This document shows positions 34,310-59,323 of a DNA stretch of 64,000 nucleotides, piece by piece (positions within the stretch are counted from its first letter, which is position 1; each line of letters starts with the position of its first letter). Location: contig NZ_BMXE01000004.1 of NCBI RefSeq assembly GCF_014651595.1, positions 248,001-312,000 on the forward strand. Direction: 5' to 3'. The notes under the pieces are model-generated. The model saw only the letters and a list, made by a program, of their open reading frames with translations, was not told the origin of the DNA and did no database searches. Origin of the DNA: Pseudovibrio japonicus. Lineage in GTDB: Bacteria; Pseudomonadota; Alphaproteobacteria; Rhizobiales; Stappiaceae. The translations under genes and the position numbers were made by a program.

Positions 34310-34752
34310 AATTCCCCCCTATCAAAACAACCAGCTTTCCTCAGCAGCTCTACTTGCGGTTGCTCATCTTAGGAGTTCAACAATACGTTCTTATGACTGC
34401 TTTGCAAGAGATAGAACAATTACTTCAGATAGCATGTCGACGAGAAGAGTGAAGTACATCTTGCTGACCGGGCCTTTGGACTGCTACACATCATGATTGC
34501 TGACACTTTAGAGTTCATCTCGGCCCACATGGTTTTTGCTGCAGCATTGGGAAATAACGTTCTAGGCAACCAGCGCCTGAGTTGCAGTTTGCAACAGAAT
34601 CCAGCCTCGTCATATAATTGTGACCAATTGCCGGGTTTGAGACAATCCGTATGCAGATGCTCGGAATATGGGCAGGAGATTTTGCTTATCTGCTAGGAAA
34701 TCGGTCAAGCGGTTGATTGAGAGCCCCTGCAGTTCATGAGAGCCTTGTTCTC
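34310..34752. other. Gene-free region between divergent ugpB and nasT
   Basis: This stretch should contain the promoters of the ugp operon and of nasT. I see no nasS-like coding sequence and no clear -24/-12 or PHO box. Short open frames here lack ribosome sites. Confidence 0.5.
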
Positions 34753-35358
34753 ATGGTTACAGATGATCTAGAAATTTTGCTGGTTGACGCAAACGAAGCA
34801 AGCACCGCAGTTATAGAAGCTGGCTTGCATGCGGCGGGTTTAAACCGCGTGACTGTCGCGAGTGACCTTAATGGCATCGGCCGGGTCATTGAGCGCGCGC
34901 GACCGGATGTGATTGTGATCGACCTTGGCAATCCACAACGTGACACACTTGAGAGCGTTTTTCAGCTCACTAGATCCGCTAAGCGGCCGATTGCCATGTT
35001 TGTAGATCAGTCAGATCAAAGTGACATCGAGGCCGCCATTGATGCAGGTGTTTCCGCCTACGTGGTGAATGGCCTGCGCCAAGATCGCGTAAAGCCCCTG
35101 CTGGATCTAGCCATCCATCGCTTCAACGCGACCACAAAGCTTGAACGGGAGTTGGAAGACGCGCGAAACGAGTTGACCGACAGAAAGATCATTGACCGTG
35201 CTAAGGGAATCCTGATCGAGACACAGAGTATTCCGGAAGCCAAGGCCTACGCCTTGCTACGGCAAACAGCCATGAACCAAAACCAGACAATTGCTGAGGT
35301 AGCAAAGAGCATTATCACAACCTCCAGCCTCTTGAATCTGGAGAAGGTGCGTTCGTAA
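34753..35358 (+). CDS. nasT: NasT-type response regulator with ANTAR RNA-binding domain
   Basis: The 201-residue protein has a receiver-like domain (about 1-125, EILLVDANEA at the start, VIVIDLGNP around the phosphorylation-site strand) and a C-terminal ANTAR domain (about 140-195, NELTDRKIIDRAKGILIETQ and ALLRQTAMNQNQTIAEVAK). NasT binds paired hexaloop hairpins in nitrate-gene leaders and prevents termination when nitrate is present; in known systems the NrtA-like sensor NasS holds it back. A matching leader lies upstream of nrtA in this window, but no nasS is adjacent. I used ATG 34753; the ribosome site is weak. Confidence 0.9.
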   Translation: MVTDDLEILLVDANEASTAVIEAGLHAAGLNRVTVASDLNGIGRVIERARPDVIVIDLGNPQRDTLESVFQLTRSAKRPIAMFVDQSDQSDIEAAIDAGVSAYVVNGLRQDRVKPLLDLAIHRFNATTKLERELEDARNELTDRKIIDRAKGILIETQSIPEAKAYALLRQTAMNQNQTIAEVAKSIITTSSLLNLEKVRS

Positions 35359-35368
35359 AACACTCCAT

Positions 35369-35986
35369 TCAGGCAAGGTGGCTCACATCATTCAATTTCA
35401 CTACTCTTGCGGACCCATCTTCATCGCGTTTCAAATGTGTAATACTGCATGGCCTGATATCGTACATGATATTTTGCAAGTGAGTATCGTCTGACAGACC
35501 AAGCCACCAATTGATCATGCAGATTATTGAGTTAGCGTGACTAACAATCAGGATTTTCTCAGCCTCAATTCTCGTCAGATCCTCCATGAAACGCTCTATT
35601 CGGGAATATAGCATTCTCCAACTCTCTCCCTTATTATACGGGATCCAGTCGAGAATTGGTTGAGTTGGAGGGTTCCAGACTTTCTGAGCCTCCTCTTTTG
35701 TAAGGCCCTTTGCCACCCCGTTGTTCAGTTCACGTAGTTGCGGTGTCTGGACAAATTCATTTCCAGTCTCTTCCGCAACCCATTCAGTTGTTTGTATTGC
35801 CCGCTTCAGATCACTTGAAAAGATCGGGATCGGGCGAAACTCAACGTACCGCGGTAGAAATGAGGCAGTTTGCTTTGCTTGGCGAATACCGTGAGGTGTT
35901 AGTGCGGAATCGGTCCAACCTCCAACAACTCCCTCCAGATGGTGTTCACTTTCTGCGTGTCTTAAAAGAATTAGTTCATTCAACAT
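35369..35986 (-). CDS. Histidine phosphatase family protein
   Basis: The 205-residue protein belongs to the phosphoglycerate-mutase-like histidine phosphatases. LILLRHAESEH carries the catalytic RH(G/A)E start, SSDLKRAIQT the second arginine, and ILIVSHANSI the second catalytic histidine. It removes phosphate from a small molecule or protein; the substrate is unknown. It is transcribed against nasT and nrtA and separates the regulator from its target operon, which suggests an insertion. No relation to nitrogen metabolism is evident. Confidence 0.88.
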   Translation of the reverse strand: MLNELILLRHAESEHHLEGVVGGWTDSALTPHGIRQAKQTASFLPRYVEFRPIPIFSSDLKRAIQTTEWVAEETGNEFVQTPQLRELNNGVAKGLTKEEAQKVWNPPTQPILDWIPYNKGESWRMLYSRIERFMEDLTRIEAEKILIVSHANSIICMINWWLGLSDDTHLQNIMYDIRPCSITHLKRDEDGSARVVKLNDVSHLA

Positions 35987-36402
35987 TTTCCTCCCGCGAG
36001 TGTCTAACGTCCACTCAATGGAATGTGCACTTTGTAAAACTGCTTATCATTGAGCCTTGATGGATGCGTACTCTTTGGCCAGTTCATTGAATCACATCCC
36101 AGTTGGTTTACCCGACCCTTTATACCAGCCTGACATCTACATTGCAGGATTAGACCCTTCTCCCGCCCAGCGTCCAGTTTCAAGACTGAGGCTTTCCTGG
36201 CTGATAGGAGTCGCCCTTACGTGCAGTGTAAGCACAGCCTGAATGCACTTGATCAAAATTTAACCAACAAGCAATAACGCTCATTTTTTGTGCATACACA
36301 TTCTCAAAAACAAGCAGAATTTTACCGCGACATGAATCGATCTGAAATTTTAAACATACATAACACATTGTATTATTGAAGCTTTTACGTATCCCCTCAA
36401 GT

Positions 36403-36418
36403 TGGCACGCATCCTGCA
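36403..36418 (+). promoter_or_regulatory. Sigma-54 (-24/-12) promoter of the nitrate operon
   Basis: TGGCACG-CATC-CTGCA matches the sigma-54 consensus TGGCACG-N4-TTGCA with one mismatch, and the invariant GG and GC are ten bases apart. A start site near 36430 would place both leader hairpins at the 5' end of the mRNA. This agrees with nitrogen control of nitrate assimilation. Confidence 0.75.
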
Positions 36419-36442
36419 AAGATAGGGGCGTGATGAATTTCT

Positions 36443-36460
36443 GTGTCCAATGACGGGCAC
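36443..36460 (+). promoter_or_regulatory. ANTAR target hairpin P1 in the nrtA leader
   Basis: GTGTCC (36443-36448) pairs with GGGCAC (36455-36460), including one G-U, around the six-base loop AATGAC. The loop has A at position 1 and G at position 4, the known requirement for ANTAR-binding hexaloops. It lies just after the predicted transcription start and four bases before the second hairpin. Confidence 0.75.
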
Positions 36461-36464
36461 CCCA

Positions 36465-36476
36465 GGCAAAGCCGCC
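36465..36476 (+). promoter_or_regulatory. ANTAR target hairpin P2 in the nrtA leader
   Basis: GGC pairs with GCC around the six-base loop AAAGCC, again with A at position 1 and G at position 4. Its loop and right arm are also the left arm of the terminator that follows, so the two structures exclude each other. This is the switch expected for ANTAR antitermination. The short three-pair stem is the weak point. Confidence 0.65.
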
Positions 36477-36542
36477 AATCAGACTTGCTTGCAGCTCTCC
36501 CCTCCCGATGAGCCGCAGGCAGCCTCTGTTGGCGGTTTTTTG
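36468..36542 (+). terminator. Conditional terminator in the nrtA leader
   Basis: AAAGCCGCCAA (36468-36478) pairs with TTGGCGGTTTT (36529-36539), with a U-run to 36542. The stem is eight strong pairs plus A-U pairs. It lies about 50 bases before the nrtA start codon. In the absence of NasT binding it should end transcription before the structural genes. Confidence 0.85.
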
Positions 36543-36589
36543 TTTGCGCGCTTTCCCGCGCACCACCCGAATTTGAGGAGATTGTTTAT

Positions 36590-37966
36590 ATGTCCTTTGA
36601 CAACACCAACATTGTGAAGCTGGTAGCCGGCGTCGTGATGCTTGCGAGCTCCAGTCTCATGTCTCCAGCACAGGCAGAGATGCTAGATGTTGAGAAAGAC
36701 GAGTTGAAGCTCGGCTTCATCAAACTGACCGATATGGCACCTCTCGCCGTAGCTTATGAGCTTGGGTATTTTGAAGAGGAAGGCCTGTTCGTCACCCTTG
36801 AACCTCAGGCGAATTGGAAGGTCCTTCTGGACCGTGTGATAACGGGCGAGCTGGACGGCGCTCATATGCTGGCAGGCCAGCCACTTGCAGCAACTATTGG
36901 CTACGGCACTCAGGCACACATCGTCACGCCGTTTTCAATGGACCTGAACGGCAATGGTGTCACCGTTTCCAATGAGATCTGGAAGATGATGAAGCCGCAT
37001 ATTCCAATGGACGAGGATGGCAAGCCGGTGCACCCGATCAAAGCAGATGCGCTTAAGCCGGTTGTCGAGCAGTTCAAGGATGAAGGCAAACCCTTCAACA
37101 TGGGCATGGTCTTTCCCGTCTCCACCCATAACTACGAGCTGCGCTATTGGTTGGCAGCGGGGGATATTCACCCTGGCTTCTATTCACCAACGGACATTTC
37201 CGGTCAGCTGCAGGCAGATGCTCTGTTGTCTGTGACGCCGCCTCCACAAATGCCCTCCACTCTGGAAGCAGGCACTATCTATGGCTACTCCGTCGGCGAG
37301 CCTTGGAACCAGCAGGCCGTGCTCAAAGGCATTGGGGTGCCGGTGGTGACCGACTACGAAATCTGGAAGAACAATCCGGAGAAAGTGTTTGGACTGACCA
37401 AAGAGTTCACCCAGCAATACCCAAACACCACCCTCGCCCTCACTAAGGCGCTCATTCGCGCTGCAAAGTGGCTGGACGAGAACGACAACGCGAACCGTCC
37501 TGAAGCGGTGGAGATCCTGTCACGCTCTGAGTATGTGGGGGCGGATTATGAGGTGATCGCCAACTCCATGACTGGCACCTTTGAGTACGAGAGAGGCGAC
37601 AAGCGTGCGGTGCCGGACTTCAACGTATTCTACCGCTATTTCGCAACCTACCCCTACTACTCAGATGCTGTTTGGTATCTGACGCAAATGCGTCGTTGGG
37701 GGCAGATTGCCGAGCCTAAAAGCGATGCTTGGTTTGATGAGACCGCAAAGAGCGTTTACCGCCCAGACATATACCTGAAGGCAGCAAGAATGCTGATCGA
37801 AGAAGGGTATGTGTCCGAACAAGACTTCCCTTGGGAAACAGATGGCTACCGCCCACCAACGCCGGTTGAGGACATCATTGACGGTGTTCCCTACGACGGC
37901 AAGAAGCCGAACGCTTACATCGACAGCCTGACCATTGGCTTGAAGTCTTCGGACATCAGTTCATGA
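36590..37966 (+). CDS. nrtA: Nitrate ABC transporter substrate-binding protein (NrtA/CmpA family)
   Basis: The 458-residue protein has a signal peptide (about 1-29, ending in PAQA) and the NrtA/CmpA fold: [23 protein letters not shown], then [19 protein letters not shown], and [13 protein letters not shown]. It binds nitrate, or nitrite, in the periplasm. The signal peptide argues against it being the cytoplasmic sensor NasS, which is homologous but lacks one. It is the first structural gene after the NasT-type leader. Confidence 0.93.
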
Positions 37967-38042: not shown

Positions 38043-39119
38043 ATGACCAATATCTCGGAGAGTGCGCCCACTGCTGCCAAAACTAGCAACGAGCGCCTCC
38101 GTTCATCCTTACGCAAAGCAGCAAACCTGACGGAGGTGTTGGGTCTGGCTTGGTTCGTTCCAGTGCTCCGCCTTGCTGCGGGTGCCCCCCCCAAAGAGCA
38201 GCTTTCGGCACTCAATCGTGTGCTGGTCATCCCGCTTATCGGGGTGCTGTTCTTCTTGTTCGTTTGGGGCGTCACAGCGCCTCGCATCCAAACCTCGCTT
38301 GGCGCTATTCCCGGACCTGTTCAGGTATGGGAGCAAGCGGGTAATCTGTGGGCCGATCATGTGCGCGAGCGGGAGAAAGCAGCGGCTTTTTATGAACGTC
38401 AGGACCAACGCAACGCCAAGCTTGAAGCTGCTGGTAAGCCCGACAAGATCAAACACCGCACCTACACGGGCAAGCCCACCTATCTGGACCAGATCGTTAC
38501 CTCGCTCTTCACCGTGAGCCTTGGGTTTATCATTGCAACGCTCGTGGCCGTGCCGCTCGGCATCACCTCGGGACTATCGCGCACGTTTAACGGAGCATTG
38601 TCGCCGCTTATTCAGATCTTCAAACCGGTCTCCCCGCTGGCCTGGCTTCCCATCGTGACCATGATTGTCTCTGCCACCTATGCAAACCCATGGAGCTTTA
38701 TGCCCAAGTCCCTTTTGGTTTCTGCGGTGACTGTGACGTTGTGTTCACTCTGGCCAACGCTCATCAACACCGCGCTCGGTGTGGCGTCCGTTGACAAAGA
38801 CCTGATGAATGTGGGCCGCGTGCTTCAGCTGTCCACGCTGAAGACGGTCACCAAATTGGTGCTGCCCTCCTCCCTGCCGTTGATCTTTACAGGCCTGCGC
38901 TTGTCATTGGGTGTGGGTTGGATGGTGCTCATCGCAGCAGAAATGCTGGCGCAGAATCCGGGGCTCGGGAAGTTCGTTTGGGACGAGTTCCAGAATGGAT
39001 CCAGTCAGTCCCTTGCGAAAATCATCGTGGCAGTTCTGACAATCGGCATCATCGGCTTCTTGTTGGACCGGGTCATGTTCGCTCTGCAAAACCTGTGCAG
39101 CCATGACAGCGGACGATAG
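38043..39119 (+). CDS. nrtB: Nitrate ABC transporter permease NrtB
   Basis: The 358-residue permease has an N-terminal helix near 60-80, a charged periplasmic or cytoplasmic stretch (about 105-150), and a BPD_transp_1 domain with the EAA-type loop (DLMNVGRVLQLSTLKTVTKLVLPSSLPLIFTGLRL). It forms the nitrate channel, probably as a homodimer with the fused ATPase gene next to it. The stop codon overlaps the ribosome site of that gene. Confidence 0.93.
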   Translation: MTNISESAPTAAKTSNERLRSSLRKAANLTEVLGLAWFVPVLRLAAGAPPKEQLSALNRVLVIPLIGVLFFLFVWGVTAPRIQTSLGAIPGPVQVWEQAGNLWADHVREREKAAAFYERQDQRNAKLEAAGKPDKIKHRTYTGKPTYLDQIVTSLFTVSLGFIIATLVAVPLGITSGLSRTFNGALSPLIQIFKPVSPLAWLPIVTMIVSATYANPWSFMPKSLLVSAVTVTLCSLWPTLINTALGVASVDKDLMNVGRVLQLSTLKTVTKLVLPSSLPLIFTGLRLSLGVGWMVLIAAEMLAQNPGLGKFVWDEFQNGSSQSLAKIIVAVLTIGIIGFLLDRVMFALQNLCSHDSGR

Positions 39120-39128
39120 GAGGCTTTG

Positions 39129-40892
39129 ATGACGATCCTTGAGATTTCAAGCCTGTCCGTGGGCTTTGGAGATGGTGCAGACCGACGCAACGTATTAACC
39201 GATGTGAACCTGAAGGTGCAGGAGGGCGAGTTTGTTGCCATCGTTGGGTTTTCAGGCGCGGGCAAAACAACGCTGATCTCTGCGCTCGCAGGCTTGATCA
39301 AGCCAGACAAAGGCGGCGTTATCTTTCGCGGTAAAGAGGTGACAGGGCCAGGGCCCGAGCGCGGAGTGGTGTTCCAGTCTTACTCGCTGATGCCGTGGCT
39401 CACGGTGAAAGATAATGTGGGCCTCGCGGTGGACAGCGTGTTTCCGCAAAAACCCCGCGCTAAGCGGGCCGAGCTTGGCGCAGACTATATCGAGATGGTT
39501 GGCCTTTCTCACGCTGCGGACCGCCGACCAGCCGAGCTTTCTGGTGGCATGCGTCAGCGTGTGGCCGTGGCACGTGCGCTGGCTATGCAGCCGAACGTTT
39601 TGCTCATGGACGAACCGCTTTCGGCGCTCGATGCCCTGACCCGCGCCAAGCTTCAGGATGAATTTGCGGGCATTTCGCAGAAAGAGAAGAAAACCATCAT
39701 CCTCGTGACCAACGATGTGGATGAGGCCATCCTGCTGGCTGACCGCATCATCCCACTGAAACCCGGACCAGAAGCGACCTTTGGGCCAGAGTTTAAGGTG
39801 AACCTCCCTCGCCCACGCGATCGCGGAGCCATGAACTCGGATGCGGAGTTTATGCGCCTGCGCGGTGAGATCACCGATTACCTGCTCGAAATTGGCGCGT
39901 CTGCAAGCGGCTCTGCTGAGGAAGATGGCATCAAGCTGCCAAATATCGTTCCGTTTGCACCGAAGACCGGAGCAGATGGCGGGCTTCCAACCGCTTATAA
40001 GCGGGAGGCGGAAAGCCCACACAGTGACCGGTTCCTTGAACTTAGTCAGCTGACCAAAGTTTACCCAACACCTAAGGGACCACTCACAGTCGTGGACGAG
40101 CTTTCCCTGAAAGTGAACAAGGGCGAGTTCATTTCGCTGATTGGTCATTCAGGCTGCGGCAAGTCTACGGTTCTTTCCATGGTGGCTGGGCTTAATGAGG
40201 TCACCGAGGGCGCAATCATTCTGGACGGCAAGCACATTACGCAGGCCGGGCCAGACAAAGCGGTGGTGTTTCAGGCCCCTTCCCTTTTGCCGTGGCTGAC
40301 AGCCTACGAGAACGTGGCACTTGGCGTAGACAAAGTTTACCCCAATGCAACTGCCACTGAGCGTGAGGATGTGGCGCGTTATTACCTCTCCCGCGTGGGC
40401 CTTGGGGATGCAGGTGATACGCTGGCGGCAGACCTTTCCAACGGTATGAAGCAGCGGGTGGGCATCGCACGCGCCTTTGCGCTTTCTCCCAAGGTGCTGC
40501 TGCTGGACGAGCCATTCGGCATGCTCGACAGCCTCACACGGTGGGAGCTTCAAGACCTTCTGATGGATGTTTGGAAACGCACGCAGGTGACTGCGATCTG
40601 CGTAACGCACGACGTAGATGAAGCGATCTTGCTGGCGGACCGCGTGGTGATGATGTCCAACGGTCCCAATGCGACCATCGGAAACATTATGGAAGTGGAC
40701 CTGCCGCGCCCGCGCAGCCGGAAAGCACTGCTCAATCACCCTGATTACTACGCCTATCGTGAGGAACTTCTCGATTTTCTTGAGGCGTATGAAGGCGGGG
40801 CAAACCCAAGCGAAGAGCAGCTGCGTTCCATCCAGCAAAAACGTGCCATGCGTCTTGATCGCCAGAAGGCGGCAATTGATGCAGCAGAATGA
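39129..40892 (+). CDS. Nitrate ABC transporter, two fused ATPase domains
   Basis: The 587-residue protein contains two NrtD-like ATPase domains in one chain. Domain 1: Walker A GFSGAGKTT (40-48), signature LSGGM (137-141), Walker B LLMDEPLS, but the H-loop reads VTND with Asn185 in place of His. Domain 2: Walker A GHSGCGKST (329-337), signature LSNGM (426-430), Walker B LLLDEPFG, H-loop His484. Both deviations fall in the same composite ATP site. It differs from cyanobacterial NrtC, which carries an NrtA-like C-terminus. TAGGAGG precedes the ATG, and nirB follows 12 bases later. One chain would supply both ATPases for the NrtB dimer. Confidence 0.93.
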   Translation: MTILEISSLSVGFGDGADRRNVLTDVNLKVQEGEFVAIVGFSGAGKTTLISALAGLIKPDKGGVIFRGKEVTGPGPERGVVFQSYSLMPWLTVKDNVGLAVDSVFPQKPRAKRAELGADYIEMVGLSHAADRRPAELSGGMRQRVAVARALAMQPNVLLMDEPLSALDALTRAKLQDEFAGISQKEKKTIILVTNDVDEAILLADRIIPLKPGPEATFGPEFKVNLPRPRDRGAMNSDAEFMRLRGEITDYLLEIGASASGSAEEDGIKLPNIVPFAPKTGADGGLPTAYKREAESPHSDRFLELSQLTKVYPTPKGPLTVVDELSLKVNKGEFISLIGHSGCGKSTVLSMVAGLNEVTEGAIILDGKHITQAGPDKAVVFQAPSLLPWLTAYENVALGVDKVYPNATATEREDVARYYLSRVGLGDAGDTLAADLSNGMKQRVGIARAFALSPKVLLLDEPFGMLDSLTRWELQDLLMDVWKRTQVTAICVTHDVDEAILLADRVVMMSNGPNATIGNIMEVDLPRPRSRKALLNHPDYYAYREELLDFLEAYEGGANPSEEQLRSIQQKRAMRLDRQKAAIDAAE

Positions 40893-40904
40893 GGGCATGA
40901 GATC

Positions 40905-43352
40905 ATGACAGAAAAACTTGTAATTGTCGGCAATGGCATGGCACCGGGGCGGATGCTGGAGCATCTGCTGGAGGCTGATCCAAATGCCTATGACATAACC
41001 ATTTTCAACGCAGAGCCGCGTGTGAACTACAACCGGCTCATGCTGTCTCCGGTACTCTCCGGCGAGAAGAGCTATGAGGACATCATTACTCACGATGACG
41101 ACTGGTACGCTGACCACGGCATCACCCTTCACAAAGGCCAGATGATCACCGCAATTGATCGCGCTGCAAAGACGGTGACCAGCGCTGGCGGCATTACAGT
41201 AAGCTACGACAAGCTTGTGATCGCCACAGGATCCTCTCCGTTTATCATTCCCATTGAAGGAAAAGACCTGGACGGGGTACTGGTTTATCGGGACCTGGAT
41301 GATGTGGAAGCCATGCTGGCAGCTGCAAAAGCCGGTGGCCGTGCTGTGGTGATTGGCGGCGGTCTGCTGGGACTTGAGGCAGCAGCGGGACTGAAAGAGC
41401 AAGGCATGGACGTAACCGTCCTGCACTTGATGCCCACACTGATGGAACGCCAGCTTGATGAAGCATCCGGCTACCTTCTTGAGAAAGCCTTTGCTGATCG
41501 TAGTATCGAGGTTCTGACAAAAGCCAATACCAAGCGCATTTTGGAGAGCGAAGGCAAGGTTGCTGGCGTTGAGTTGGAAGACCGCACAGTGATCGAGGCC
41601 TCCATTGTTGTCATGGCCGTTGGCATTCGCCCGTCCACCCAGCTGGCGCAGCAAAGCGGTTTGGACGTCGGGCGCGGCATTCTCGTTTCCGATGACATGC
41701 GCACCTCTAACAAGGATATCTTCGCCCTTGGTGAGTGCGTGGAGCATCGCGGCCAATGTTACGGTCTGGTGGCACCGCTTTACGACATGGCGAAGGTGAT
41801 CGCGCAGAACCTGCTTGGCGGGACGTCAGCTTACAAGGGCTCCGTGACCGCCACCAAGCTAAAGGTGACGGGCATTGATCTTTACTCCGCCGGGGACTTT
41901 GCCGAAGGAGAAGGTCGCGAGGAAATCGTACTTCGGGATGCGACTTCGGGAATCTATAAGCGCCTGGTATTGCAAGACAATCGCATCATCGGCGCAGTTC
42001 TCTACGGTGAAACCACTGACGGGCCCTGGTTCTTCGATCTTCTTAAGAAGGGCGAAGATATCTCCGAAATGCGCGATACGCTCATCTTTGGGCAGGCGTA
42101 TCAGGGAGGTATGCCGCTGGACCCCTCAGCAGCCGTTGCAGCCTTGCCGGATGATTCAGAAATCTGCGGCTGCAACGGCGTTTGTAAAAGCACAATTACC
42201 TCTGCCATTACAAGCAAAGGCCTGAGCTCACTGGAGGAGGTGCAGGCCCACACCAAGGCAAGCGCGTCCTGCGGAAGCTGCACCGGCCTTGTGGAGCAGC
42301 TCATGGCTGCAACGCTTGGGGATGCTTATAACCCGGCAGCCGTAACGCCAGTGTGCGGCTGTACGGATCTGGGTCACGATGATGTACGGCGATTGATCGT
42401 TGCCAAGGAGCTGAAAACCATCCCTGAAGTGATGCAGGAGCTTGAGTGGAAGACCTCCTGCGGATGCGCCAAGTGCCGCCCTGCCCTCAACTACTATTTG
42501 GTCTGTGAGTGGCCGGAAGAGTATGCGGACGACTATCAAAGCCGCTTCATCAACGAGCGGGTGCACGCCAACATCCAAAAGGATGGAACATACTCTGTGG
42601 TGCCGCGCATGTGGGGTGGCATGACCTCCTCCGCCGAGCTGCGTGCCATTGCCGATGTGATCGATAAATACGAGATCCCCAGTGTGAAGTGCACCGGCGG
42701 TCAACGCATCGACATGCTGGGCGTGAAGAAGGAAGACCTCCCAGACGTTTGGGACGATCTGGGTAAGGCTGGCTTTGTCTCCGGCCATGCCTACGCTAAG
42801 GGCCTGCGCACCGTGAAAACCTGTGTGGGCACAGACTGGTGCCGATTTGGTACGCAGGATTCCACCGGGTTCGGCATTCGGCTGGAAAAGTTCATGTGGG
42901 GATCATGGACGCCTGCAAAGCTGAAACTGGCTGTCTCTGGCTGTCCGCGCAACTGTTCAGAGGCTACCTGCAAAGACATTGGCGTTGTGTGTGTCGATAG
43001 CGGCTACGAGATCCACTTTGGCGGTGCCGCTGGCTTGCACATTCAAGGCACCGAGGTACTTGGGACCGTGGCCACAGAGGATGAGGCGCTGGAACACATT
43101 GTGGCACTGACCCAGATGTACCGCGAGCAAGGCCGCTATCTGGAACGGATTTACAAATGGGCGAAGCGCATTGGCTATGACGAGGTGCGCCGCGTGATCA
43201 TGGAGGATACGGACAGGCGGAGAGCTTACTTCGACAGGTTTGTGGCCTCGCAGAAGGTTGCCCAGGTGGACCCGTGGTCCGAGCGGGTTTCCGGCAAGGA
43301 TAAGCATGAATTCAACCCAATGAAAGTTGTAAAGCTGGAGGCCGCAGAATGA
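40905..43352 (+). CDS. nirB: Assimilatory nitrite reductase large subunit
   Basis: The 815-residue protein reduces nitrite to ammonium with NAD(P)H. In order it has FAD/NAD domains (IVGNGMAPGRML at the start, VVIGGGLLGLEAA), two [2Fe-2S] BFD-like segments (CGCNGVCKS with CGSC, then CGCTDL with CGCAKC), a sulfite/nitrite reductase ferredoxin-like half, and the siroheme/[4Fe-4S] ligands Cys640, Cys646, Cys680 and Cys684. It overlaps nirD by four bases (ATGA). Cofactor supply fits the cysG-like gene in the same operon. Confidence 0.96.
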   Translation: MTEKLVIVGNGMAPGRMLEHLLEADPNAYDITIFNAEPRVNYNRLMLSPVLSGEKSYEDIITHDDDWYADHGITLHKGQMITAIDRAAKTVTSAGGITVSYDKLVIATGSSPFIIPIEGKDLDGVLVYRDLDDVEAMLAAAKAGGRAVVIGGGLLGLEAAAGLKEQGMDVTVLHLMPTLMERQLDEASGYLLEKAFADRSIEVLTKANTKRILESEGKVAGVELEDRTVIEASIVVMAVGIRPSTQLAQQSGLDVGRGILVSDDMRTSNKDIFALGECVEHRGQCYGLVAPLYDMAKVIAQNLLGGTSAYKGSVTATKLKVTGIDLYSAGDFAEGEGREEIVLRDATSGIYKRLVLQDNRIIGAVLYGETTDGPWFFDLLKKGEDISEMRDTLIFGQAYQGGMPLDPSAAVAALPDDSEICGCNGVCKSTITSAITSKGLSSLEEVQAHTKASASCGSCTGLVEQLMAATLGDAYNPAAVTPVCGCTDLGHDDVRRLIVAKELKTIPEVMQELEWKTSCGCAKCRPALNYYLVCEWPEEYADDYQSRFINERVHANIQKDGTYSVVPRMWGGMTSSAELRAIADVIDKYEIPSVKCTGGQRIDMLGVKKEDLPDVWDDLGKAGFVSGHAYAKGLRTVKTCVGTDWCRFGTQDSTGFGIRLEKFMWGSWTPAKLKLAVSGCPRNCSEATCKDIGVVCVDSGYEIHFGGAAGLHIQGTEVLGTVATEDEALEHIVALTQMYREQGRYLERIYKWAKRIGYDEVRRVIMEDTDRRRAYFDRFVASQKVAQVDPWSERVSGKDKHEFNPMKVVKLEAAE

Positions 43353-43684
43353 ACGCACAGACAACCACCTTTGTAGAGATCGGCAGCCTTGGTGACATCC
43401 CTATACGCGGGTCGCGCCGCGTGGAGCTCAATGGCGAGCGCATTGCCATATTTCGCAGCGCAGCGGATGAAGTCTTCGCGCTAAAAGACGAATGCCCGCA
43501 TAAGAAGGGACCGCTATCGGAGGGGATCGTCCACGATGGATGTGTCACCTGCCCGATGCACAACTGGGTCATTTCGCTTGAAACCGGTGAGGCACAAGGG
43601 GCGGATGAAGGCCGCGTCCTGCGGTACCCCGTGAAGATCAAAGGCAACATGGTGCTGTTGGGTGTGACACCGGAGGGCGCATGA
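43349..43684 (+). CDS. nirD: Nitrite reductase small subunit (Rieske-like)
   Basis: The 111-residue protein is a Rieske [2Fe-2S]-type NirD. The cluster pairs are CPHKKGPLSEG and CPMHNWVISL (Cys-x-His and Cys-x2-His). It partners NirB. The start overlaps nirB and the stop overlaps nasA, both by ATGA, so the three are translationally coupled. Confidence 0.95.
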   Translation: MNAQTTTFVEIGSLGDIPIRGSRRVELNGERIAIFRSAADEVFALKDECPHKKGPLSEGIVHDGCVTCPMHNWVISLETGEAQGADEGRVLRYPVKIKGNMVLLGVTPEGA

Positions 43685-46362
43685 TGGAGGGCACAGTACG
43701 CACCACCTGCCCCTATTGCGGTGTCGGCTGCGGAGTCCTTGCCACGCCTCAACCAGATGGCACAGTCCACATTGCAGGCGATCCGGAGCACCCCGCCAAC
43801 TTCGGCAAGCTTTGCTCCAAAGGCGCAGCCCTTGGAGAAACGCTTGGATTGGAGACCCGCCTGCTCCACCCGCAGGTAAACGGCAAACGGTCGAGCTGGG
43901 AGGATGCGCTTGATCTGATCGCGGACAAGTTCAGCACCGCCATCAAAGAGCATGGGCCTGACAGTGTCGCGTTTTATCTTTCAGGGCAGATCCTGACCGA
44001 GGACTATTACGTTGCAAACAAGCTGATGAAGGGGTTCATCGGCTCTGCCAACATCGACACCAACTCCCGCCTTTGCATGGCGTCCTCCGTTGCCGGACAT
44101 AAACGGGCCTTCGGCTCAGACACAGTGCCTTGCTCCTATGAAGATCTGGAACAGGCAGATCTGCTCGTTCTGGTGGGCAGCAATTTGGCGTGGTGTCATC
44201 CCGTGCTTCATCGGCGGATTGAAGAGGCCCGCGCAAAACGCCCCCAAATGAAGCTGGTGGTGATTGACCCTCGCGAGACAGCAAGCTCAGAAGGCGCTGA
44301 CCTGCACCTTGCGATCAAGCCCGATGCGGACACGGCTCTGTTTGGTGGCCTACTCGCGTACCTGGCAAAGAACGGCGCGTTGGACACAGACTACATCCAG
44401 CAGCACACGGTAGGATTCAGCGAGGCATTAGAGGCGGCACAAGCGTGGGGTGGCGAAGCACTAAAACGCGCAACACGCCTGTCGCACGCGGAGCTTGAGG
44501 TGTTTTACCAGCTCTTCGCAAACACCGAGAAATCCGTGACGGTCTACAGCCAAGGCGTCAACCAATCCAGCCAAGGCACCGACAAGGTCAATGCTATTCT
44601 CAACTGCCATCTGGCAACGGGTCGGATCGGCCGCGCGGGCATGGGTCCCTTTTCCATCACCGGACAACCCAACGCCATGGGTGGGCGTGAGGTAGGTGGC
44701 CTTGCCAACATGCTGGCCGCGCATATGGAGCTGGGTAATCCAGAGCACCACTCCATCGTCGAACGCTTCTGGACTGCTCCAAAGCTGGCACGCGAGCCCG
44801 GCTTGAAGGCCGTCGAGCTGTTTGATGCGGTGGCCGATGGACGCATCAAGGCGCTCTGGATCATGGGCACCAACCCGGCTGACAGTTTGCCCAATGCAAG
44901 CAAGGTGGAAGCAGCGATTGCCAGCTGTCCTTTCGTGGTTGTTTCCGAAGTTGCCCAGCAAACGGACACGAGCCGCCATGCAAATGTACTGCTCCCTTCT
45001 GCGGCATGGGGCGAAAAAGCTGGCACTGTAACCAACTCAGAACGCAGAATCTCAAGGCAACGGGCGTTTCTGGACCTGCCTGGCGAGGCCAAACCGGATT
45101 ACTGGCAGCTGACACAAGTGGCGCAGCGCATGGGGTTTACTGCTGCGTTTGAGTATGGCTCACCAAGCGACGTCTTTTGCGAGCACGCAAAGCTCTCGGC
45201 CTTTGAGAACAACGGAAAACGCGACTTTGATATTGGTGCGTACGCCGAACTTTCCGAAGAAGCCTATGACGGACTGGTTCCATTCCAATGGCCCGCACCC
45301 GATGGGGCCAAACCAGATGCAACGCACTTTTTTGGCAACGGCGGCTTCTTCCATGCCGATCAAAAAGCACGGTTCATTGCTATGCAATGCGCTTCAACTT
45401 CAACCTCAACGTCTTACGACCAGGAGCCACTCACACAATCCGATCACTTGACCTTGAACACTGGCCGCCTGCGCGACCAATGGCACACCATGACCCGGAC
45501 TGGCCTTTCGTCTCGCCTGTGCGGGCATATGCCGGAACCGTCGCTGGACATCTCGCCAGTCGATGCGGAGGCTCTAGGCCTAGCCTCAGGAGATATCGCT
45601 CGTGGGCGCAGCGAGCACGGTGAAGTCCTGCTGCGGGTTGTAGCCACGTCTCGGCAGAAGGCGGGCACTGTGTTCGCGCCCGTACATTGGACGGACCAAT
45701 TCTCCTCCAATGCCCGTATCGATAAGCTGGTGGCAGCTGAACTGGACCCCATTTCCGGACAGCCTGCCTTCAAGCAAAGTAAAGTCTCCGTTGAACGGTA
45801 TGCGGGCAAAGCCTACGGTTTCGCGGTGACGCGCCAGAAGCCCGAGGTAAAAGGCTTTGACTATGCCGCTGCCGTGCCATGTGCTGGCGGATGGAGGCTT
45901 GAGTATGCTCATGATCGCCAAATGCAGCATGCTGAACTCCAGATTGCACTGGGTCTAAGCGGGGCCAAAGATGTACAGTGGGTTCAATATACTGATAGCG
46001 CGGGTGGACGACGTGCAGCCGCGTTTGAGGGCGACCAGCTTCTGGCTGTTTTCATGGAAACTGCCCAGCCCGTCGTCTTATCCCGCTCCCACCTGATTGC
46101 GGTCTTCGAACGTCCGCGATGGGAAGCCGCAGATCGCCTCTCCGTTCTTTCCGGTTGGCCGTCCGCAGACCAGCCCGCAAAGGGCGCGATTGTTTGTTCC
46201 TGCATGAATGTTGGGGTCTACGAGATCCAGAAGAGCATTGCAGAAGGCGCTCACTGCACGAACAGCATCGGCGCAGCCACGGGCGCTGGCACCAATTGCG
46301 GTTCTTGCTGCTCCGAACTTTCAAGGATTTTGCATGACCAGTCACAGCTTGCAGCCGAATAG
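43681..46362 (+). CDS. nasA: Assimilatory nitrate reductase catalytic subunit (molybdoprotein)
   Basis: The 893-residue protein reduces nitrate to nitrite in the cytoplasm. The N-terminal [4Fe-4S] ligands are Cys10, Cys13, Cys17 and Cys45 (CPYCGVGC and LCSKG), followed by the bis-MGD molybdopterin domains. The C-terminal region adds a BFD-like [2Fe-2S] domain (VCSCMNVGVYEIQ and NCGSCC), the electron entry seen in NasA proteins that lack a separate small subunit. There is no Tat signal. It overlaps nirD by four bases and the next gene by 29 bases. Confidence 0.95.
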   Translation: MMEGTVRTTCPYCGVGCGVLATPQPDGTVHIAGDPEHPANFGKLCSKGAALGETLGLETRLLHPQVNGKRSSWEDALDLIADKFSTAIKEHGPDSVAFYLSGQILTEDYYVANKLMKGFIGSANIDTNSRLCMASSVAGHKRAFGSDTVPCSYEDLEQADLLVLVGSNLAWCHPVLHRRIEEARAKRPQMKLVVIDPRETASSEGADLHLAIKPDADTALFGGLLAYLAKNGALDTDYIQQHTVGFSEALEAAQAWGGEALKRATRLSHAELEVFYQLFANTEKSVTVYSQGVNQSSQGTDKVNAILNCHLATGRIGRAGMGPFSITGQPNAMGGREVGGLANMLAAHMELGNPEHHSIVERFWTAPKLAREPGLKAVELFDAVADGRIKALWIMGTNPADSLPNASKVEAAIASCPFVVVSEVAQQTDTSRHANVLLPSAAWGEKAGTVTNSERRISRQRAFLDLPGEAKPDYWQLTQVAQRMGFTAAFEYGSPSDVFCEHAKLSAFENNGKRDFDIGAYAELSEEAYDGLVPFQWPAPDGAKPDATHFFGNGGFFHADQKARFIAMQCASTSTSTSYDQEPLTQSDHLTLNTGRLRDQWHTMTRTGLSSRLCGHMPEPSLDISPVDAEALGLASGDIARGRSEHGEVLLRVVATSRQKAGTVFAPVHWTDQFSSNARIDKLVAAELDPISGQPAFKQSKVSVERYAGKAYGFAVTRQKPEVKGFDYAAAVPCAGGWRLEYAHDRQMQHAELQIALGLSGAKDVQWVQYTDSAGGRRAAAFEGDQLLAVFMETAQPVVLSRSHLIAVFERPRWEAADRLSVLSGWPSADQPAKGAIVCSCMNVGVYEIQKSIAEGAHCTNSIGAATGAGTNCGSCCSELSRILHDQSQLAAE

Positions 46363-59247: not shown

Positions 59248-59323
59248 GAGCCCGTAGCTCAGCTGGTAGAGCAACTGACTTTTAATCAGTAGGTCCACGG
59301 TTCGAACCCGTGCGGGCTCACCA
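59248..59323 (+). tRNA. tRNA-Lys (anticodon TTT)
   Basis: The 76-base gene folds as a full cloverleaf. The acceptor stem GAGCCCG pairs with CGGGCTC, the anticodon stem ACTGA pairs with TCAGT with loop CTTTTAA and anticodon TTT (59281-59283), and the T-loop is GGTTCGAACC. CCA is encoded. No integrase or duplicated tRNA end is seen nearby. Confidence 0.97.

Follow-up and report, generated by a model that had tools for sequence, protein, structure and literature searches.

What does an antitermination switch for nitrate assimilation respond to when the gene for its nitrate sensor is missing from the locus? NasT is commonly seen as one half of a nitrate-responsive pair, and a preliminary description of the DNA ahead of nrtA in Pseudovibrio japonicus, made from the letters of the sequence, had predicted a working NasT switch that combines control by nitrogen supply with control by nitrate. 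We analyzed this DNA within a stretch of 64,000 nucleotides (the window), together with the rest of the genome assembly and related genomes. The region 36403–36589 is likely to be a NasT-responsive attenuation leader that is now driven by nitrogen supply, largely without nitrate.

Architecture of the Leader

The elements between the promoter and the start of nrtA are as follows (type of evidence in brackets).

36403–36418, forward strand: sigma-54 −24/−12 promoter element TGGCACGCATCCTGCA (sequence, consensus scan)
36443–36460, forward strand: hairpin P1, GTGTCC-AATGAC-GGGCAC, with hexaloop AATGAC (sequence, folding, covariation, covariance model)
36465–36476, forward strand: hairpin P2, GGC-AAAGCC-GCC, with hexaloop AAAGCC and a 3-bp stem, mutually exclusive with the terminator (folding, covariance model)
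36469–36541, forward strand: intrinsic terminator hairpin and T-run, the left arm overlapping P2 (folding, covariation)
36501–36506, forward strand: putative anti-Shine-Dalgarno-like CCTCCC in the apical loop of the terminator (loop region 36494–36512) (sequence)
36575–36580, forward strand: Shine-Dalgarno-like GAGGAG of nrtA (sequence)

Both hexaloops have A at position 1 (A1) and G at position 4 (G4), and the stems (6 bp in P1, 3 bp in P2) and the 4-nt linker agree with the ANTAR pattern of stems of at least 3 bp joined by a short linker. In the minimum free energy (MFE) fold of 36428–36478 both P1 and P2 form, as the preliminary description had proposed; in that of 36428–36541 the terminator, which shares the right half of P2, replaces it, which bears out the proposal that the left arm of the terminator uses P2. 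The terminator (−37.8 kcal/mol, z −5.68) stops 48 nt short of the nrtA start codon (36590), and neither it nor the 36428–36541 fold as a whole (z −4.43) was equaled in stability by any of 200 shuffles. P1 and P2 on their own show no extra stability over shuffles (z −0.23), and the case for the hairpins therefore rests on conservation and not on energy. A scan with Rfam gave no family, and no ANTAR family, that matches the leader at its gathering score; a match to P11 (15.6 bits versus a gathering score of 70) was rejected as chance. The sole Rfam match above gathering score in the window is a tRNA gene at 59248–59320.

The operon downstream would provide uptake and reduction of nitrate.

36590–37966, forward strand: nrtA, nitrate ABC transporter binding protein (PF13379, about 312–313.6 bits)
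38043–39119, forward strand: nrtB permease (PF00528)
39126–40892, forward strand: double ATPase of the nitrate transporter (PF00005, two stretches)
40905–43352, forward strand: nirB-type assimilatory nitrite reductase (PF01077, PF07992)
43681–46362, forward strand: nasA-type assimilatory nitrate reductase (PF00384, PF01568, PF04324)

Conservation and Covariation

Conservation was assessed in the best 80 listed loci encoding NrtA relatives (labels beginning with L; genomes are labeled with G), using a parser that looks for a hairpin with a 6-nt loop overlapping a terminator and leaves the loop sequence free. The 87 targets comprised the 80 loci, six stretches of other genome sequence, and the window, and the parser succeeded in 73 of them. 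P2 loops had A1 in 61/73 and G4 in 70/73; a P1 loop was called in 66, with A1 in 51/66 and G4 in 57/66. The counts include one spurious row (L018) and several mis-registered P1 or P2 calls.

An alignment of the leaders of 25 relatives, two of them from the same genus and the window itself excluded, revealed compensatory changes in the stems of P1 and the terminator: 96.8% of cells are paired (84.8% after shuffling), nine of 15 pairs have two-sided changes, there are 49 two-sided changes in all versus 14.0 after shuffling, and none of 500 shuffles was as high. For P1 with P2 the paired fraction is 99.1% (91.9% after shuffling), and, of the five covariation measures, two were matched or exceeded in 13 and 36 of 500 shuffles; the P2 stem is nearly invariant, with variation in one of its three pairs. 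A covariance model (R1) built from the same 25 leaders, which include those of G007, G089, and G151, scores the window leader at 68.2 bits (E 5.7e-17), the next match in the window scoring 10.7 bits. Across the whole genome the next match has 21.3 bits (E 0.04), so that the window leader is the sole confident copy. The hexaloops and the terminator are thus conserved in relatives, and the lack of conservation that the preliminary description had named as a refutation was not observed. P1 and the terminator covary, and the assignment of this element as a probable genuine NasT-type ANTAR leader, of an already-known kind, is well supported by sequence comparison.

The leaders vary in their layout. 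Linker lengths between hexaloop hairpins have a two-peaked distribution among parsed leaders, and in many leaders of L030–L086 (mostly Rhodobacterales; e.g. L058, L062, L086) the hexaloop hairpin is separated from P2 by about 28–38 nt that include hairpin-like sequence. For EutV, a 20-nt extension of the linker is reported to have abolished antitermination (available text of PMC8934654). An extra hairpin lies upstream of P1 in L015, L017, L019, L025, and L073, several with an A1/G4 hexaloop, which suggests that some leaders may offer three NasT sites. Second copies of the leader were seen about 4.7 kb from the first in G041:C23, G158:C1, and G230:C10, at 3.5 kb in G225:C34 and G239:C1, and at 213 kb in G197:C1; the five of six within 5 kb perhaps precede a later gene of the operon.

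NasT and Its Co-occurrence with the Leader

34753–35358, forward strand: nasT, receiver and ANTAR protein of 201 aa (PF03861, 67.3 bits; PF00072, 39.2 bits)

The window nasT is intact, combines receiver and ANTAR domains, and encodes the sole ANTAR protein found in a search of the genome. It lies upstream of the sigma-54 box, its start 1.65 kb and its end about 1.0 kb away, closer than the 1.8 kb given in the preliminary description. The nearest solved structures by sequence are 1s8n (a putative antiterminator) and 6wsh (listed as a response regulator), the latter of which we take to be EutV. With an inferred offset of 2, the NasT residues aligned with the RNA contacts of EutV given in the available text of PMC8934654 are R144, K145, R149, and Y166, all of which are kept.

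An order-wide survey of 199 genomes, with cut-offs of E 1e-25 for NasT and E 0.001 for the leader and with strict filters, detected NasT in 95 genomes and the leader in 61; each search scored part of its candidates, and the lists were compared by hand. NasT is found in 58 of the 61 leader genomes; in G087, G120, and G152 the leader is present and NasT has no match at E 1e-25. Under the same strict filters, 37 of the 95 NasT genomes have no leader match. This co-occurrence, together with the covariation, links NasT to the leader as had been proposed, and NasT would act by binding it and stopping termination.

The locus set gives a similar picture in detail. Eight loci (L016, L018, L022, L023, L024, L037, L039, L047) have neither NasT in the fetched flanks nor a detected leader (for L018 one parser gave a spurious leader parse). 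When the whole genomes of these eight were searched for ANTAR proteins, L016, L023, and L037 gave none and four gave weaker matches (E 4e-10 to 5e-4); the L047 genome, as an exception, gave a strong match although the leader is undetected at that locus. L021 and L048 have the leader and a strong ANTAR protein encoded elsewhere in the genome. NasT is present in L033, L035, L059, L069, L072, and L073, where at least one of two parsers failed or mis-parsed; hexaloop-like hairpins are visible by eye in several of these sequences. G001 and G014, from the genus of the window, have nrtA, no ANTAR protein, and no parsed leader.

The Missing Sensor NasS

The gene order in relatives is nasT-nasS-leader-nrtA, and nasS is present in 68 of 70 named loci bearing nasT. 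In the window there is no nasS between the end of nasT (35358) and nrtA, and its position is taken by another gene, which ends 10 bp from nasT and has a GC content of 0.458 versus 0.524 for the window.

35369–35986, reverse strand: histidine-phosphatase-superfamily gene (PF00300, E 1.3e-41)

Searches of the genome with NrtA and NasS queries returned only NrtA at useful scores, with one further NasS match of 12.9 bits, and PF13379 found, besides NrtA, three proteins at only 27 to 46 bits; NrtA is the sole strong protein of the NrtA/NasS type in this genome. Weak BLAST matches at 36120–36197, in the order expected for the NasS C terminus, raised a nasS relic as a candidate, which was overruled by the profile score: a NasS profile of 86 sequences gave −2.5 bits on 35987–36589, where 500 shuffles had a maximum of 4.8 and a median of −3.5. 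NasS seems to have been lost from this bacterium.

Among 16 genomes of the genus searched, strong NasT occurs in three (the window's own, G007, and G011), and NasS in G011 alone, told from NrtA by identity and place. NasS was searched in 80 of 97 NasT genomes, with positions relative to NasT compared by hand; it is present in 75, adjoining nasT except in G139 (other contig), and G204 has a shortened relative. It is absent in four of the 80 (G000, which is the window's genome, and G007, G089, and G151), and in G192 nasT lies at a contig end, where the presence of NasS cannot be judged. A nasT gene and leader hairpins with no clear NasS were also seen in two metagenome-derived genomes of gammaproteobacteria (L050, L068). 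The leader and a sigma-54-like box are retained in each of the four genomes of the order that lack NasS, the P2 loop of G089 starting with G; G007 keeps a full leader although its NasT, encoded about 10 kb from nrtA, has 53% identity and an end branch of 1.06. On a NasT tree with several long branches and unsure placements, the six NasS-less rows require at least four state changes, or two if only well-supported branches are counted. No report of a NasS-less NasT was found in the portions of the open-licence literature consulted, which is weak evidence. The unusual feature here is a switch that lacks its nitrate sensor, and other NasS-less genomes have likewise retained the leader.

The NasT receiver was compared at 28 positions that 95% or more of 86 NasS-bearing NasTs conserve, and the ANTAR domain at 16 reference positions. 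Receiver deviations number two in the window, nine in G007, three in G089, 12 in G151, seven in L050, and two in L068, versus 0 in 59, 1 in 22, 2 in four, and 4 in one of the 86 NasS-bearing NasTs when each was left out; ANTAR deviations are 0, 2, 0, 0, 0, and 5 in the same six, and 0 in 63, 1 in 16, and 2 in seven of the NasS-bearing proteins. The residues lost in three of the six NasS-less NasTs, many of them at 57–84, point to a candidate NasS-binding face, and the pattern fits a relaxation that such a face may have undergone in some lineages; the long branches are a confounder here. The window NasT is at the edge of the normal range (2/28), and therefore nasS may have been lost recently, or NasT may still have a partner.

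The Promoter and Predicted Nitrogen Control

In TGGCACGCATCCTGCA the GG (36404–36405) and the GC (36416–36417) are separated by 10 bases, and the GG-N10-GC stands in TGGCAC/TGCA context. A scan of the 64 kb with TGGCACGNNNNNTGCW on both strands found 36403–36418 as the sole match with zero mismatches, which substantiates the sigma-54 element and its spacing as first described; with up to two mismatches there are 42 matches versus 48.5 expected, a chance level. A comparable element lies upstream of 32 of 71 parsed leaders.

Two NtrC-like sites, 33 bp apart, precede nasT.

34658–34674, reverse strand: NtrC-like site, one mismatch to YGCMNNNNTTNNTRGCA
34691–34707, reverse strand: second NtrC-like site, one mismatch

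Of 75 loci, 26 have a site with at most one mismatch within 300 nt before nasT, compared with 4.3% of random windows of that length; the pattern is weak, and its frequency over the entire window is at chance level. Scanning of the 300 nt before nasT gave a perfect site in G007 and none in G011, G089, and G151, and the 36001–36402 region upstream of the nrtA promoter has none. In Paracoccus denitrificans an NtrC site matters for nasT, and control of nasT by NtrC has been reported (available text of PMC5424462).

A Probable Nitrogen-Driven Switch and Its Alternatives

Our preferred model is as follows. Sigma-54 RNA polymerase would start about 10 nt past the −12 element, and by default the nascent RNA would fold the terminator, stopping transcription before nrtA. 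Free NasT is predicted to bind the P1 and P2 hexaloops, hold P2, and so occupy the left arm of the terminator; by analogy with other ANTAR systems, blocking of the terminator would allow read-through into nrtABD-nirB-nasA. NasS in relatives is expected to restrain NasT until nitrate binds. Here, with nasS lost, NasT would most likely be free whenever it is made, its antitermination constitutive, and the switch would follow NasT supply and the sigma-54 promoter, i.e. nitrogen status, rather than nitrate. If NtrC acts at the sites before nasT, nitrogen starvation would supply both the nrtA transcript and NasT in a feed-forward arrangement.

NasS is missing from the locus and was not found in the genome, and a Paracoccus nasS mutant is reported to have constitutive assimilatory activity, without nitrate (available text of PMC3795266); nitrate control is therefore doubtful, and we think that it has been lost or weakened here. 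Of the two control layers first proposed, the nitrogen-type promoter stands, while the nitrate layer lacks its sensor. Several points count against the preferred model. If NasT were free and present at all times, the intact terminator would be difficult to account for. Of the 28 receiver residues the window NasT retains 26, unlike three other NasS-less NasTs that lost nine, 12, and seven. NasT without a leader match is frequent across the order. NtrC-like sites are at chance level window-wide, and none was found at 36001–36402 or before nasT in G011, G089, and G151. Lastly, P2 has only 3 bp, and mutation of the second hairpin, HII, in Paracoccus left induction relatively unaffected (available text of PMC5424462).

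We regard as unlikely an alternative in which the nitrate response is kept and the two-layer model is unchanged, NasT being held by another sensor such as an unrelated protein, a receiver kinase, or NrtA itself. The well-kept receiver of the window NasT and the retention of terminator and hairpins in the window, G007, G089, and G151 despite the missing NasS speak for such a partner. However, no second NrtA/NasS-type protein of the expected similarity accompanies NrtA, the three other PF13379 proteins being weak matches; NrtA has an N terminus that resembles a signal peptide by eye and should sit outside the cytoplasm; and many conserved receiver residues have been lost from the NasTs of G007 and G151.

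It is improbable that nasS was lost so lately that the leader is merely an intact relic with no selected function now. The lower-GC phosphatase gene in the nasS position and a window NasT little changed at conserved sites are in keeping with recent decay, but G007, of the same genus, combines the lack of NasS and a far-diverged NasT with a full leader, and the relic search gave a score within the shuffle range. That nasS is present in the organism and missing from the assembly, or on an unassembled replicon, is very improbable: the genome is not closed, and a gap among its 24 contigs could in principle hide a gene, but completeness is 100%, and nasT and nrtA share a contig, the interval from one to the other being occupied by a different gene.

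NasS-less genomes that keep NasT and its RNA target suggest that an RNA switch can outlive its sensor, and they provide a natural test of NasT acting alone.

An Anti-Shine-Dalgarno-Like Motif in the Terminator Loop

The inner part of the terminator contains CCTCC in 44 of 72 parsed leaders versus 9.2 expected when each loop is shuffled, the leaders being related, so that the 44 carriers do not represent 44 independent events. The motif is extended to CTCCTCCC in 27 of the 44, is fully unpaired in the MFE fold in 55 of 65 occurrences, and lies inside a hairpin loop in 41 of 71 leaders. It is present in 20 of 32 leaders of the sigma-54 set and 24 of 39 of the rest, and in one of 33 other terminators of the same loci versus 1.0 expected, a small control. 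In the order-wide leader set it was found in ten of 66 leaders versus 5.0 expected, and the motif is therefore clade-limited; as a general feature of these leaders it was rejected, on 44/72 in the nrtA-guided set versus 10/66 order-wide, two sets that share several leaders. The same-genus G007 and G011 have no CCTCC loop motif.

Pairing of the loop in cis with the nrtA ribosome-binding site was not supported (duplex energies of matched pairs against permuted ones, p = 0.07 with n 44 and p = 0.09 with n 37), and leaders with the motif do not have stronger ribosome sites (p = 0.73). One may speculate, doubtful as it is, that the attenuated leader is itself a regulatory RNA: nitrogen starvation without antitermination would yield, from the sigma-54 promoter, a terminated RNA of about 115 nt with the motif in its terminator loop, which could silence ribosome-binding sites in trans, in the way that the alpha-r14 RNA NfeR1 acts on ntrB, or in cis. 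If true, the NasT switch would choose between the nitrate operon and a small RNA, a choice that, without NasS, nitrogen status alone would set; a functional anti-Shine-Dalgarno loop would unite attenuator and small RNA in one element.

Comparison with Known Systems

The comparisons below follow the available text of the cited papers. The alpha-r14/NfeR1 “cuckoo” small RNAs resemble the window terminator in displaying an unpaired anti-Shine-Dalgarno CCUCC(UCCC) in a hairpin loop on a variable stem; the alpha-r14 motif is CCUCCUCCC, and NfeR1 silences ntrB in Sinorhizobium (PMC10746234; PMC3927594). They differ in being independent small RNAs that carry three or four hairpins of this type, whereas the window has a single, putative attenuator loop; its terminator hairpin, the one hairpin examined for the repeated display of CCUCCUCCC, has CCUCCC only. 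No link of CCUCCUCCC to attenuators was found in the portions of the open-licence literature consulted.

The EutV leaders of Enterococcus faecalis resemble the window leader in having two small A1/G4 hexaloop hairpins with stems of 3 bp or more, a constrained linker, and a P2 that overlaps the terminator (PMC3369931; PMC8934654). EutV, however, is promoted by phosphorylation, and the window NasT has no known kinase partner. The NasR/nasF leader of Klebsiella oxytoca likewise places a nitrate-assimilation operon under ANTAR antitermination, but NasR has its own nitrate-sensing domain and NasT does not (PMC3369931; PMC7496416).

Further parallels are to the NasS-NasT system and nasA leader of P. 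denitrificans, where the ANTAR regulator is likewise of the NasT type, hairpins of the leader separate the regulatory genes from the structural ones, and nitrogen control is added on top (PMC3795266; PMC5424462). There NasT binds the nasA leader (PMC3795266) and shifts its RNA (PMC3795266; PMC5424462), and mutation of HI severely lowers expression while HII matters little for induction (PMC5424462). Unlike that of Paracoccus, the window leader lies behind a sigma-54 element and ahead of an operon for a nitrate ABC transporter. For P. denitrificans, which has NasS, earlier work has described control by nitrogen supply in combination with NasT antitermination (PMC5424462); the window genome carries the corresponding switch without it.
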